Assembly: GCA_022827905.1 (NCBI GenBank) | Contig: JAJEIQ010000063.1 | Span: 1 to 38,105, forward strand | DNA from: Pseudomonadales bacterium | GTDB taxonomy: Bacteria > Pseudomonadota > Gammaproteobacteria > Pseudomonadales > Azotimanducaceae | Reading direction: 5' to 3' | DNA: 38,105 bases | In this document: positions 6,045 through 24,863 of the stretch, one piece after another | How positions within the stretch are numbered: position 1 is the stretch's first letter | Layout: each line of letters opens with the position of its first letter | Position numbers and translations under genes: made by a program | Notes under the pieces: generated by a model | Databases searched by the model: none | What the model was told of the DNA's origin: nothing | The model's input: only the letters and a program-made list of their open reading frames with translations

Positions 6045-7398
6045 TGCCGTAGGCGAGCATGGCGTCGGCGATCTTGAGAAAGCCGCCGATGTTGGCGCCC
6101 TTCACGTAATCGACCTTGCCGTTCTCTGAGCCGTGGCGCAGGCAGGTCTGGTGGATGTTGTGCATGATCGTCTGCAGACGGGAATCCACTTCATCGGCGC
6201 TCCAGGACAGGCGCAATGCGTTCTGGCTCTGCTCCAGGCCCGACACGGCGACGCCGCCGGCGTTGGCGGCCTTGGCGGGTCCGTACAGGATGCCAGCGTC
6301 GAGAAAGGCGCCCATGCCATCAGGATCCGTGGGCATGTTCGCGCCTTCGCACACCGCGCGAACGCCGTTGTTCAATAGGGTCTGCGCATCGTCGCCGTTG
6401 ATCTCGTTCTCGGTGGCGCAGGGCAGGGCGACGTCAACGGGAACGCCCCAGGGCCGCTGGCCCTTGTGGAAGCTGACGTGGTCGAAGCGATCCGCCACCT
6501 CGGCAATGCGGCCGCGGCGGACCTCCTTGAGCTCGCGAATGAACGCCAGCAAGTCGCGGTCCAAGCCGCCGGGGATGTGGATGAAGCCGGAGGAGTCCGA
6601 CAGGGTGACCACCTTTGCCCCGAGGGTGATCGATTTCTCGGCGGCGTAGATGGCCACATTGCCGGAACCCGAAATCGCGACAGACTTCCCGTCGATGCCT
6701 TCCCCGACGTGGTTGAGCATGTGTTCGCAGAAGTACACGCAACCGTAGCCGGTGGCTTCCGTGCGCACCAAGCTGCCGCCGAAGTTCAGGCCCTTGCCGG
6801 TCAGTATGCCGGCGTAGCGGTTCGCCAGGCGCAGGTATTGGCCGAACAGCACGCTGATCTCCCGGGCGCCGACGCCAATGTCGCCAGCGGGAACGTCGGT
6901 GTCCTCACCGATGTGCCGGTGGAGCTCGATCATCAGCGACTGGCAAAAGCGTTCCACCTCGCGGTCGCTCTTGCCCTTGGGGTTGAAGTTTGAACCGCCC
7001 TTGCCGCCGCCCATCGGCAGGCCGGTGAGGCTGTTCTTGAAGACCTGCTCGAAGCCGAGGAACTTCAGGATGCTCAGGTTGACCGATGGATGAAAGCGCA
7101 GGCCGCCCTTGTAGGGGCCGATGCAGTTGTTGAACTGCACCCGCCACGCGCGGTTGATGCGCACGTTGTGCGCATCGTCCTCCCAGCAGACCCGGAAGAT
7201 CACTACGCGGTCCGGCTCCGTCAGACGCTCCAGAATCCGCGCCTCCCGATAAGCCCGGTGTTCGAGCACGAAGGGCATCAGGCTTTCAACGACTTCGCGG
7301 ACCGCTTGGTGAAACTGGGTCTCCCCCTCGTTGCGGCGAATGAGCCCGCGCATGAATCGCGCGACTTCGTTCTCAACCGTTGGGTTTGGGTGCGCCAT
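6037..7398 (-). CDS. gdhA: NADP-specific glutamate dehydrogenase
   Basis: Catalyses reductive amination of 2-oxoglutarate with ammonium and NADPH, a cytoplasmic hexamer. The product has 453 residues (E. coli GdhA has 447). The glutamate/leucine dehydrogenase active-site region is clear: YKGGLRFHPSVN, then LTGLPMGGGKGGSNF with the catalytic lysine, and PAGDIGVGAREI. The Rossmann motif GSGNVA binds the cofactor. The frame stays open to 7500, but an AGGAAG-like site (complement of 7405-7410) sits 6 nt before the ATG at 7398, which also fits the family N-terminus. The gene converges on yejF with an 8-bp overlap and diverges from the ankyrin gene across about 240 bp with no obvious operator. Confidence 0.94.
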   Translation of the reverse strand: MAHPNPTVENEVARFMRGLIRRNEGETQFHQAVREVVESLMPFVLEHRAYREARILERLTEPDRVVIFRVCWEDDAHNVRINRAWRVQFNNCIGPYKGGLRFHPSVNLSILKFLGFEQVFKNSLTGLPMGGGKGGSNFNPKGKSDREVERFCQSLMIELHRHIGEDTDVPAGDIGVGAREISVLFGQYLRLANRYAGILTGKGLNFGGSLVRTEATGYGCVYFCEHMLNHVGEGIDGKSVAISGSGNVAIYAAEKSITLGAKVVTLSDSSGFIHIPGGLDRDLLAFIRELKEVRRGRIAEVADRFDHVSFHKGQRPWGVPVDVALPCATENEINGDDAQTLLNNGVRAVCEGANMPTDPDGMGAFLDAGILYGPAKAANAGGVAVSGLEQSQNALRLSWSADEVDSRLQTIMHNIHQTCLRHGSENGKVDYVKGANIGGFLKIADAMLAYGII

Positions 7399-21344: not shown

Positions 21345-21417
21345 GCGGACAAATCCCCCACTAGGCTGGAGTTAGAACTGGTCCGCCGCGTTTGTCGCAA
21401 TTTGCAAATTTTTCACA

Positions 21418-21465
21418 TTGACAATTCAAACTCAATGTACTTATATGAAATGACGTATTGCGTCA
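21418..21465 (+). promoter_or_regulatory. Sigma-70-like promoter with overlapping operator, upstream of the cysD fusion gene
   Basis: TTGACA at 21418-21423, a 17-bp spacer, and TTATAT at 21441-21446: close to the bacterial consensus. The inverted repeat TGACG-TATTG-CGTCA follows at 21451-21465, over the expected transcription start. The local sequence is AT-rich compared with its surroundings. The arrangement fits a strong promoter closed by a repressor; the regulator is unknown. Confidence 0.65.
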
Positions 21466-21480
21466 AAGCAGCAGTAAAGC

Positions 21481-22971
21481 ATGACTTTCCAACTGCCAGA
21501 AGCGGGTTTTGTCAACCCGCTCGATGCCAACGGAGCGCCGATTTGCTGGGACTCCAAGAAGCTCCAGGAGATTTCAGGCGGTGCCTCTTTGCGCACCGTG
21601 GAACGGGCCCTTGCTGAGGGAAACTTCCTGCCAGCACCCAGAAAGCCCTCTGAAGTCGTCGATGAGAACGGGGAGGAGGGGCTGAAACGCCTGGTGCGGG
21701 ATGATTTGGAAGCGGATGCCAAGCGCAAGCGCCTGCCGTCGCTGGTCGTGCAGCAGCACGAAAGTGCCCGTGGCCGTTTGCTCATGGCCAACGACGCCCG
21801 TGGCGGGCGCAAGTGGATGTGGCTGGAGCATGAGCCTGCCCCGGACGACCTTACGACCTTTCTTGATGCGTTGCATCGACACTACGGCAAGCCATTGCTG
21901 GTTTGGCCTCACGGCGCCCTCACCAAGGTCGCGAAAGCCCTAGTCGCACGGGCTCGGAAGCACAACATCGGCCTTGCCTCAGGCGGGTCGGCTCGGCTGG
22001 CACTCACTGCCTATCGCAGTCAACCCGTTCACTTGGAGGCCCTACCGGAGAACCCCAAGAAGGACCGCAGCATGGACCTGACTCATCTGGACCGCCTGGA
22101 GGCGGAGAGCATCCACATCATTCGTGAGGTCATGGCTGAGGCGGAAAACCCGGTCATGCTGTATTCCATCGGCAAGGACTCGTCCGTGATGCTGCGCCTC
22201 GCGGAGAAGGCCTTTTACCCGAGCCCGCCGCCGTTTCCGCTCATGCATGTGGACACCCGCTGGAAGTTCCAAGCCATGTACGAGTTCCGGGACAGAATTC
22301 CTGAGGCGACCGGCATGGACCTCATTGTGCATATCAATCCGGAGGGCGTTGAGAAGAACATCAACCCCTTTGATCACGGCAGCGCCCTGCACACGGACGT
22401 GATGAAGACCCAGGGCCTGATTCAGGCCCTCGACAAGCACGGTTTCGATGCCGCCTTCGGCGGGGCCAGGCGGGATGAGGAAAAAAGCCGCGCCAAGGAG
22501 CGGGTCTTTTCCTTTCGAAACAGCGCGCACCGCTGGGATCCCAAGAACCAGCGGCCGGAGCTGTGGAACCTGTACAACGGCCGCAAGGCGCCCGGGGAGA
22601 GCATTCGCGTGTTCCCACTCTCCAACTGGACTGAGCTCGATATTTGGCAGTACATCTACCGGGAGGGCATCCCCATTGTGCCGCTCTACTACGCGGCCGA
22701 ACGCCCGGTCGTTGAACGAGACGGCATGCTGATGCTGGTGGATGACGACCGGCTCAAGCTGTTTCCCGGGGAGCGGATACACACCAAGCGGGTGCGGTTC
22801 AGAACGCTGGGTTGCTACCCCCTTACCGGCGCCGTTGAATCGGACGCTGACACCCTGCCGAAAATTCTGCTGGAACTGCTGGAAGCGCGCACCAGCGAAC
22901 GCCAAGGCCGCGCCATCGATTCCGACAGCGATGGATCCATGGAGAAGAAGAAGCAGGAGGGCTACTTCTAG
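21481..22971 (+). CDS. cysD: Sulfate adenylyltransferase small subunit CysD with a unique about 197-residue N-terminal extension
   Basis: The C-terminal 299 residues (from Met198, base 22072) are a full CysD/Nod[23 protein letters not shown]-loop [45 protein letters not shown], and the end RAIDSDSDG with KKKQEGYF. CysD with CysN makes APS from ATP and sulfate. Normal CysD is about 302 residues. Upstream, the frame is open without a stop to ATG 21481, and the extra part reads as real protein with a possible helix-turn-helix-like stretch ([17 protein letters not shown]) and a basic middle; I do not recognise it. ATG 21481 lacks a Shine-Dalgarno sequence, whereas AAGGA sits 7 nt before 22072, so both a fusion and a normal CysD may be made. 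Forms an operon with cysNC. Confidence 0.88.
22060..22074 (+). promoter_or_regulatory. Internal ribosome-binding site and alternative CysD start
   Basis: AAGGA at 22060-22064, a 7-nt spacer, and ATG at 22072-22074, in frame inside the long cysD gene and exactly where E. coli CysD homology begins ([12 protein letters not shown]). Initiation here would give a standard 299-residue CysD without the extension. Confidence 0.6.
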
Positions 22972-22985
22972 TAGAGGCCATCCAC

Positions 22986-24863
22986 ATGAACGACATTGAA
23001 ACCAAGATTGACCAGTACTTGGAAGAGCAGTCGAACCTCGACTTGCTTCGATTCATCACCTGCGGCAGTGTCGATGACGGCAAGTCAACCCTAATTGGCC
23101 GCATGCTATACGAGGCGCAGCTGATTTTTGAGGATCAGGTTGCGGCGCTGACCAACGATTCCAAACGCCATGGCACCCAAGGCGGCGACATCGATTTTGC
23201 CCTGCTCGTCGATGGCCTCGCTGCGGAACGGGAGCAGGGCATCACCATTGATGTGGCCTACCGATTCTTCGCAACGGATCACCGCAAGTTCATCGTCGCC
23301 GACACGCCGGGGCACGAACAGTACACGCGCAACATGGCCACCGGAGCATCGACCGCCGAGGTCGCCGTCATCCTGGTCGATGCGAAGGCCGGCGTATTGA
23401 CCCAGACCCGTCGCCACTCCTTCATCTGTTCGATTCTCGGCATTCGCCATGTGGCCTTGGCTGTGAACAAGATGGATCTAGTTGACTTCGACCATGAGAG
23501 ATACAACGAGATCGTTCGTGACTACGAAGCGTTCGCGGAGCAACTGAACTTTGAGCAGATCACCGCCATCCCGATGTCCGCTCTGCACGGAGACAACGTG
23601 GTTGAGCGCTCAGCGAAAACGCCTTGGTACCACGGGCCCACGCTGATCGGGTTTCTGGAGACCGTGGACGCGCATCGCTCCTTGACCGGCGAATCATTTC
23701 GCATGCCGGTGCAGTGGGTGAACAGGCCCGACCGAACCTTCCGAGGATTCTCAGGCACTGTGGTATCGGGAAAGGTCGCCGCTGGCGACGAAGTGCGAGT
23801 GCTGCCTTCCGGCGAGGTCGCAACCGTGGATGAGATCATTCTCCACAAAGACACATTGAATGGAGCAATCACCGATCAGGCCGTAACCATCACCTTGGAT
23901 AGGGACGTGGACTGCTCCCGAGGCGACGTCATCGTCGCGGCGAAGGATGCGTGCGAGGTCGCCGACCAGTTCGAGGTGAACCTGGTGTGGATGGACCAGG
24001 AGCCCGGCCACCATGGACGGTCCTACCTGTTGAAGACCAGCACCACTCGGGTCGGCGCCACGCTGACGGACATCAAGTACCGGTACAACGTCAACACCCT
24101 CGAACACCTTTCGTCCAAGGAGATCAAGCTCAACGACATCGGCGTGGCGACGCTCAGCGTGGACCGTGGCATCCCGTTTGAGCCCTATGGCAGCAATCGG
24201 TCGCTGGGTTCGTGTGTGCTGATTGATCGCTACACCAACGCCACCGTGGCGGCAGGCATGATCAACTTCGCCCTGCGCCGGGCACAGAACGTCCATCATC
24301 AGAAACTGACCGTCGATAAGGCGGCTCGCGAGGCATTGAACGACCACCGGGCGCGAGTCCTCTGGTTCACCGGCTTGAGCGGTGCCGGCAAGTCGACCAT
24401 TGCGGATGCCCTCGAGCAGAATCTCCACAAGCGGGGCATTCGCACCTACACGCTTGATGGTGACAACGTTCGCCACGGCTTGAACCAGGACCTCGGGTTT
24501 TCAGACGGAGACCGAATCGAGAACATCCGGCGAATCTCCGAAGTCGCAAAGCTCATGGTGGATGCTGGACTGGTGGTTCTGACCTCCTTTATTTCACCCT
24601 TCCGTGCGGAACGTGACATGGCGAGACGAATGCTGGATGAAGGCGATTTCGTCGAGATCTTCGTGGATACGCCGCTTGAGGAAGCGGAACGCCGCGACAC
24701 CAAAGGACTCTATGCCAAGGCACGAAGAGGGGAGTTGCCGAATTTCACCGGTGTTGACAGCGCCTATGAAGCACCGGAGAACCCGGAAGTGCATCTGCAC
24801 TCGGGGGAGGACAGCGTCGAGACCTGTGTTCAGCAGATCGTCGACTATCTGGGTCTCGGCTGA
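22986..24863 (+). CDS. cysNC: Bifunctional CysN/CysC: sulfate adenylyltransferase GTPase subunit plus APS kinase
   Basis: 625 residues. The N-terminal GTPase activates the CysD partner: G1 GSVDDGKST (28-35), switch [16 protein letters not shown]3 DTPGHEQY (106-113) and G4 NKMD (161-164), followed by two beta-barrel domains. From about residue 454 an APS kinase domain follows with P-loop [19 protein letters not shown], the [10 protein letters not shown] loop and [20 protein letters not shown]. Together with CysD it turns sulfate into PAPS. The CysN-CysC fusion occurs in NodQ and many proteobacteria. It starts 14 bp after cysD, with AGAGG before the ATG. No PAPS reductase, sulfite reductase or sulfotransferase gene is in the window. 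Confidence 0.95.

Follow-up and report, generated by a model that had tools for sequence, protein, structure and literature searches.

The cysD gene at positions 21481-22971 (forward strand) of the window, by which we mean the whole 38,105-nucleotide stretch of DNA analyzed here, probably encodes an autoregulating CysD, as judged from comparative sequence analysis and a structural model: its N-terminal domain (N-domain) would bind two operators that flank the cysD-cysNC promoter and so exert negative feedback on its own operon. We observe a fusion of this domain to CysD, a single branch for the fusion in the CysD tree, a pair of operator-like sites upstream of the gene, and a near one-to-one tie between that pair and the N-domain across genomes.

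The gene is one open frame of 496 amino acids. Its CysD part (ATP sulfurylase small subunit), residues 203 to 496 plus the stop codon (22087..22971, + strand), is a full-length match to TIGR02039 (1.8e-152, 507.1 bits versus a curated cutoff of 396.6), with NF009214 matching at residues 192 to 496 (1.5e-160, 533.8 bits versus a curated cutoff of 413), and its partner adjoins it as the next gene of the operon, encoding CysNC, the sulfate adenylyltransferase GTPase subunit fused to APS kinase (22986..24863, + strand; NF004035, 4e-295). The N-domain, residues 1 to 201 (21481..22083, + strand; the last ~20 residues are linker), is without a family match, which bears out the preliminary description of a CysD with a large unrecognized N-terminal extension that no stop interrupts. 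The SIGKDS loop and the RRDEEK stretch are invariant in the CysD part of 51 fused rows, and we propose from the sequence that this part still makes APS with CysNC. The window's genome, a draft of 81 contigs, holds a single copy of the fused gene and a single CysD at the family level, together with a strong PAPS/APS-reductase-type match elsewhere (G000:C47, 265-aa frame, 4.4e-52), so that the fused CysD presumably works both in ordinary sulfate assimilation and in supplying PAPS.

Relatives of the N-domain, none of which came up in a single-sequence scan of genome contigs, surfaced with an alignment query of an 84,980-species collection, where 60 of 124 pattern matches were relatives. Rather than all starting at 22072, the homologues carry the N-domain in frame with CysD in 59 of these 60 loci, which come from independent assemblies, with L062 showing a broken frame; the fusion sought in related genomes is thus found there, on a single branch of the CysD tree. 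The draft state of the window's genome would leave room for an artifact in which a missed stop, a frameshift, or a chimeric contig joins an unrelated frame to CysD, but we give this virtually no credence, since the homologues refute it: they share the same fusion and its one branch, and N-domain identity among them reaches 61%, with motifs conserved. When the CysD parts are placed in a tree, a 100/99 branch splits 35 fused rows (the window and a selection of the 60 loci) from 28 plain rows (all from the window's order), and on this sequence evidence the fusion is real and old.

Own genome included, the N-domain is present in 12/58 relatives, 9/390 genomes of the order, and 69/206 genomes of the family; short-frame matches of the 206-genome search (e.g., G453, G456, G463, G473, and G541) lie outside the fusion counts, and G002 shows partial matches among the 58 relatives and none in the 206-genome search. 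No intact stand-alone N-domain was found among the 60 loci with a search pattern that required one conserved N-domain motif, so that unfused relatives without this motif would be missed. Carriers include Gammaproteobacteria bins, Hoeflea poritis, a Nitratireductor sp., Pelagibacteraceae, Neptuniibacter caesariensis, two bins named Planctomycetes, and a SAR86-named bin, many of them metagenome bins, the names of which can be wrong. CysNC or a member of the CysNC-CysD cluster directly follows the fused gene in 47 loci, as delimited by a crude gene caller.

Individual loci show further architectures. A 1,256-residue frame in L099 (557-4315) joins the N-domain, CysD, and CysNC, with PP-loop, GTPase, and APS-kinase motifs, and L079 (7989-8678) has a repetitive insert (QDTQ-type repeats) in the N-domain, placed after the third core strand and ahead of the helix that follows. 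Plain and fused CysD are both present in the G008 and G009 genomes. One N-domain (that of L095), searched against 72,556 plasmid records, gave no match.

Residues 1 to 197 returned no Pfam or NCBIfam match up to an E value of 1, and comparison of the N-domain with Pfam (54 members), NCBIfam, and PHROGs yielded scattered matches and nothing convincing. Two of the families hit, TPR_26 (4/54 members, best 1.9e-4) and DUF3024 (4/54 members, best 0.0054), were not taken as kinship. Against the sequences of solved structures, the N-domain profile matched the knotted helical protein HP0242, its chimera, and a designed knot (best 5.7e-5, positions 33 to 97), which likely reflects helical composition, and one ornithine carbamoyltransferase (0.73). 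Ten residues are invariant in the 54-row N-domain alignment: W23, R42, D61, R84, N104, D105, R107, R110, W112, and P143. An AlphaFold model of residues 1 to 201 (pLDDT 93.9) places helices 25-31 and 37-47 in a helix-turn-helix (HTH) arrangement, followed by helix 70-82, the basic residues K83 and R84, and the order beta-beta-beta-alpha-beta-alpha-beta-beta; in the full-length model (pLDDT 84.2) the N-domain is unchanged, and confidence is low in the linker (about residues 181 to 200) and in stretches of the CysD part. The enzyme chain is thus predicted to carry an HTH-like unit at residues 25 to 47 (21553..21621, + strand; pLDDT 94), matched by no DNA-binding family, with invariant R42 and near-invariant R38 and E41; the assignment draws on the model, on conservation, and on an E41D covariation, and it agrees with an HTH-like stretch noticed earlier near residues 27 to 43. 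Profile searches and structure prediction together leave a domain without a family, modeled as this HTH-like unit and an RNase H-like core at residues 87 to 173 (21739..21999, + strand; invariant N104, D105, R107, R110, W112, and P143), the latter proposed from secondary-structure order and weak Foldseek matches.

Upstream of the fused genes we observe two inverted copies of a site with the consensus TGCATATTGCGACA, with the start codon following the right copy; refinement over 51 loci, window included, gave a 15-base matrix with the consensus TGCATATTGCGACAA. The candidate left operator of the window, TGCAAATTGCGACAA (21392..21406, - strand, 22.5 bits), lies upstream of the -35 box, and the candidate right operator, GACGTATTGCGTCAA (21452..21466, + strand, 16.1 bits), lies over the expected transcription start. 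In a matrix scan of the whole window these are the best and second-best sites, the next scoring 12.5 bits, and as a pair they score 38.6 at a spacing of 60. The right operator is part of the palindrome TGACGTATTGCGTCA at 21451-21465, so that the operator-like palindrome of the preliminary description is real and corresponds to the right site, while its inverted partner at 21392-21406 had been missed.

Pairs above 20 bits, searched at start distances of 50 to 95 bp, are present in 49/55 fused loci (54 plus the window), with start spacings of 59 (3 pairs), 60 (7), 61 (2), 80 (1), 81 (7), 82 (16), 83 (11), and 84 (2), and none of the 49 spaced 62 to 79. The two classes, 59-61 and 80-84 bp, differ by about two helical turns. 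In a tree of 51 fused rows, the 60-bp class consists of a ten-member clade around the window and of L082, which stands amid 82-bp loci (86/43 in the fused-row tree, 91/87 in the CysD tree); the spacing has thus probably shifted by roughly 22 bp two or more times, in keeping with a helical-phase requirement.

The six fused loci not above 20 bits are L069 (8.8; the region contains N bases), L107 (14.1 in the searched stretch and 33.4 at 81 bp farther upstream), and four variant loci (14.5 to 19.7, spacing 82-83). Besides its normal pair (81 bp), L107 has, downstream of the right operator at 6783-6893, three 12-bp spaced repeats with ATTGCGACA. Neither the matrix nor the promoter model R1 described below includes the variant loci L087, L096, L097, and L104, and R1 also lacks L069 and L107; L050, a repeat of L097, was not counted as a hold-out. 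Six loci were kept out of both the matrix and the alignments, namely L062, L091, L092, L099, and L112, on account of a broken frame, contig ends, masked bases, or a triple fusion, and L083, for no special reason; L079 was left out of alignments A2 and A3. Seven fused loci outside the matrix have enough clean upstream DNA, and six of them score 28.6 to 39.4 (L012, 30.1; L048, 39.4; L049, 37.2; L052, 28.6; L053, 29.7 at 80 bp; L083, 39.1 at 60 bp), with L051 at 9.0. As for the remainder, L099 has a weak pair (15.6 at 80 bp; 14.2 + 1.4 bits), L062 a strong left site (23.8) with no right partner (-3.7), and L092 a left site (12.1) followed by masked bases, while L091 and L112 begin at contig ends.

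Among the 28 plain cysD genes, none has a pair that exceeds 12.1 bits, and the plain copies in genomes that also hold a fused gene have best single sites of 0.2 bits (L036, G008) and 7.7 bits (L018, G009). Model R1, a sequence-only promoter model built from 49 loci, and the N-domain profile were both run against the 206 genomes; the N-domain is present in 69 genomes, R1 at E values up to 0.01 in 63, and both in 61. All 61 co-occurring R1 matches lie just upstream of the N-domain frame, most within 80 bases and the farthest about 170 bases away (G548); in the window, the match at 21390-21468 precedes the N-domain match at 21484. The operator pair is thus tied near one-to-one to the N-domain (Fisher value 1e-40, which ignores kinship), with R1 and the matrix being trained partly on the tested genomes and the R1 filters losing weak matches. 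R1 matches elsewhere than before an N-domain were found in G433 (7.7e-9), where the contig ends 56 bases after the match, so that the gene, if present, is cut off, in G432 (0.007), and at a second place in G438 (0.0045), the latter two being taken as chance. N-domain genomes without an R1 match number 8/69 (G473, G476, G479, G485, G497, G528, G540, and G553), some of them with partial or contig-end domains. With respect to a wider regulon, no second promoter with a convincing pair was found in the 206 genomes, as expected of a self-dedicated rather than a general sulfur regulator, and a single-site pattern with up to two mismatches gave 85 and 102 matches versus 70 and 85 for the control, the window's own site being the only exact one.

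The predicted recognition helix has Glu at residue 41 in 50/54 rows and Asp in 4/54, the latter being the variant loci L087, L096, L097, and L104. The operators of these four loci end in AAGACA or GAGACA (AA/GA core), in place of the CGAC or CGTC core seen at the other loci whose pairs exceed 20 bits. The four form one clade, so the covariation is a single event, and L051, outside the alignment, speaks against it, with Glu at this place and yet a weak right site GAGACA (-0.5 bits). The same four loci (Oceanospirillaceae type) are preceded by a gene for a kynureninase-like/aminotransferase class V protein (position -1, cluster 22, in 4 loci) and followed by a CysQ-like gene.

Some plain-CysD genomes must have other regulators, and it could be argued that a separate, unlinked transcription factor binds the pair, with the N-domain doing something else, e.g., docking CysNC or tuning ATP sulfurylase. 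We hold this to be quite unlikely, since in 206 genomes the pair precedes the fused gene but no other gene, travels with the fused gene into distant lineages while the 28 plain cysD genes go without it, and faces a domain with a predicted HTH in which residue 41 changes with the site. Co-occurrence of pair and N-domain in Gammaproteobacteria, Rhizobiales, Pelagibacteraceae, and two Planctomycetes-named bins is as expected of a self-contained unit. The earlier guess of a self-regulating CysD has thereby gained comparative support: a conserved operator pair that is absent from 28 plain cysD genes, its confinement to the fused gene in 206 genomes bar two chance-level places, and one case of covariation between site and recognition helix.

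Between the operators of the window lies a predicted promoter, TTGACA-17-TTATAT (21418..21446, + strand). Across 53 loci, the pair encloses TA...T at the two positions 6 to 7 bases before the right operator in 18/53, with five or six matches to TATAAT in 17/53 loci versus 20% in shuffles; the -10 signal is modest and the -35 signal barely above shuffles (mean 3.3 versus 3.0), so that over the loci as a whole the support for a promoter within the pair is modest. The arms being inverted repeats, the pair might instead act as RNA, in a leader stem-loop or riboswitch, and arm identity is indeed higher within a locus (74%) than between loci (69%; 0/2,000 permutations as high), an excess that kinship alone could produce. 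We rejected such a stem as very improbable: paired arms make on average 12.0/15 standard pairs including G-U, site position 12 shows an A/T disagreement between the arms in 12/49 loci, and the window's left arm lies upstream of the predicted -35 and therefore should not be transcribed. DNA operators remain the preferred reading of the pair.

A near-consensus promoter before a long start without a ribosome-binding site had been described earlier, and both features are borne out as a predicted promoter and a start, 21481, before which no ribosome-binding site is seen. Some fused genes apparently start very near the right operator, the start of L082 even overlapping it, and weak or near-leaderless initiation may thus be part of the design. 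The preliminary description also proposed two start sites, and the AAGGA at 22060-22064, 7 nt before ATG 22072, is real (22060..22074, + strand); as a general feature the second start is not supported, since the element is not conserved. Of the 54 other loci, 10 have an ATG in the 12 codons that precede the CysD part, 7 of them in the window's clade, and AAGGA is kept in L054 only. A dual output of the gene, with translation from 21481 giving the fusion and from 22072 plain CysD, would agree with the contrast between the two starts in the window and with the ATG in its clade, but 44/54 other fused loci have no such ATG and nine of the ten that do lack the AAGGA, which makes it an unlikely, if conceivable, general account. 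A second start at 22072 could operate in the window's closest relatives, where it would be compatible with autoregulation as an addition.

The predicted core has weak structural matches among transposases and integrases. Foldseek leaders in the PDB are Mos1 transposase and retroviral integrases (best E value 2.2e-3, probability 0.91-0.99 among the leading ones), with 0/951 matches at E values of 0.001 or less and TM-scores of about 0.2 to 0.4, and viral models gave a similar outcome. DDE (rve-type) transposases and retroviral integrases likewise have an HTH followed by the beta-beta-beta-alpha-beta-alpha order and act on inverted repeats, as the putative targets of the N-domain also are; in contrast to them, the N-domain has no evident catalytic acids and no sequence-profile relation. 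With the catalytic D, D, E positions placed by eye, the first core strand (87-95) carries no invariant acid, and the residues after the fourth strand, where the second acid is expected, read WPHG; the alignment has D61 and D105 as its only invariant acids. Sequence kinship with transposases was tried and rejected (hhalign against 7 of 20 PF00665 loci, probability 0.5% or less), and rve is absent from the Pfam matches of the 54 N-domain members. We describe the core as RNase H-like in predicted fold and claim no descent; that the N-domain is a catalytically dead DDE transposase descendant, which still pairs inverted end-repeats around a promoter, was fused once to CysD, and spread between phyla, is an unlikely idea.

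In the autoregulation model, the N-domain, an HTH-like unit on an RNase H-like core, would bind the two inverted operators around the cysD-cysNC promoter. With the right operator over the expected +1 and the left upstream of the -35, binding should repress, and spacing so fixed and phased points to a single protein assembly that would hold both sites, with the promoter between them. Spare CysD, neither engaged with CysNC nor loaded with a pathway ligand, would shut its own operon; candidates for release are CysD-CysNC engagement or an APS/PAPS or reduced-sulfur signal on the invariant core residues.

Enzymes with such a second role are known: PMC6978683 gives BirA as an enzyme that doubles as repressor of its pathway's operon, and PutA as both an enzyme and the transcriptional repressor of its own operon. 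The fused CysD would resemble both in this respect; unlike BirA, it is a different enzyme of a different fold, with an unclassified domain and two operators 60 or 82 bp apart, and it is encoded inside the operon that it would control, and unlike PutA, it has a predicted HTH-like/RNase H-like domain. BirA combines an N-terminal HTH and a catalytic domain in one chain and binds an inverted operator, whereas in PutA the DNA-binding part is a ribbon-helix-helix domain and proline acts via the flavin. The plain CysD of CysDN and CysDNC shares the complete CysD part, followed by CysNC, with the fused form having about 200 extra N-terminal residues and the operator pair that the 28 plain loci lack. 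CysB, a LysR-type regulator of cys genes, likewise controls sulfate assimilation, but as a separate protein with a regulon, whereas the fused CysD would act through a domain within the enzyme on one promoter per gene copy. A fungal PAPS reductase is reportedly a moonlighting activator (PMC4848566), a distant parallel. A conserved operator at its own promoter, as in a trigger enzyme, is found for the fused CysD (above 20 bits in 49/55 fused versus 0/28 plain loci; 61/69 genomes), and on sequence and model it would be a trigger enzyme of the BirA/PutA kind with a new DNA-binding domain. We found no description of the N-domain-CysD fusion or its operator in the open literature, a scope that leaves out most subscription journals and all bioRxiv preprints.

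Around fused cysD-cysNC (L054 to L113) we often observe sugar-nucleotide or polysaccharide genes (ManC type in 8 loci, RmlD type in 6), a CysQ-like inositol-phosphatase gene in 7 loci, and a gene for an 82-aa DUF2061 membrane protein in 12, neighbors that give a hint that some lineages use PAPS to sulfate polysaccharides.

Activating sulfate is costly and the pathway widespread, and its control is known mainly through separate regulators. The model makes a prediction that names the protein, two operators, their spacing, and one specificity residue. If true, it would add a new trigger enzyme and a new DNA-binding domain family with a defined operator, together forming a self-contained regulatory module that is also found in Pelagibacteraceae and a SAR86-named bin; should the transposase descent be true as well, this would be a portable, self-switching sulfate-activation operon.
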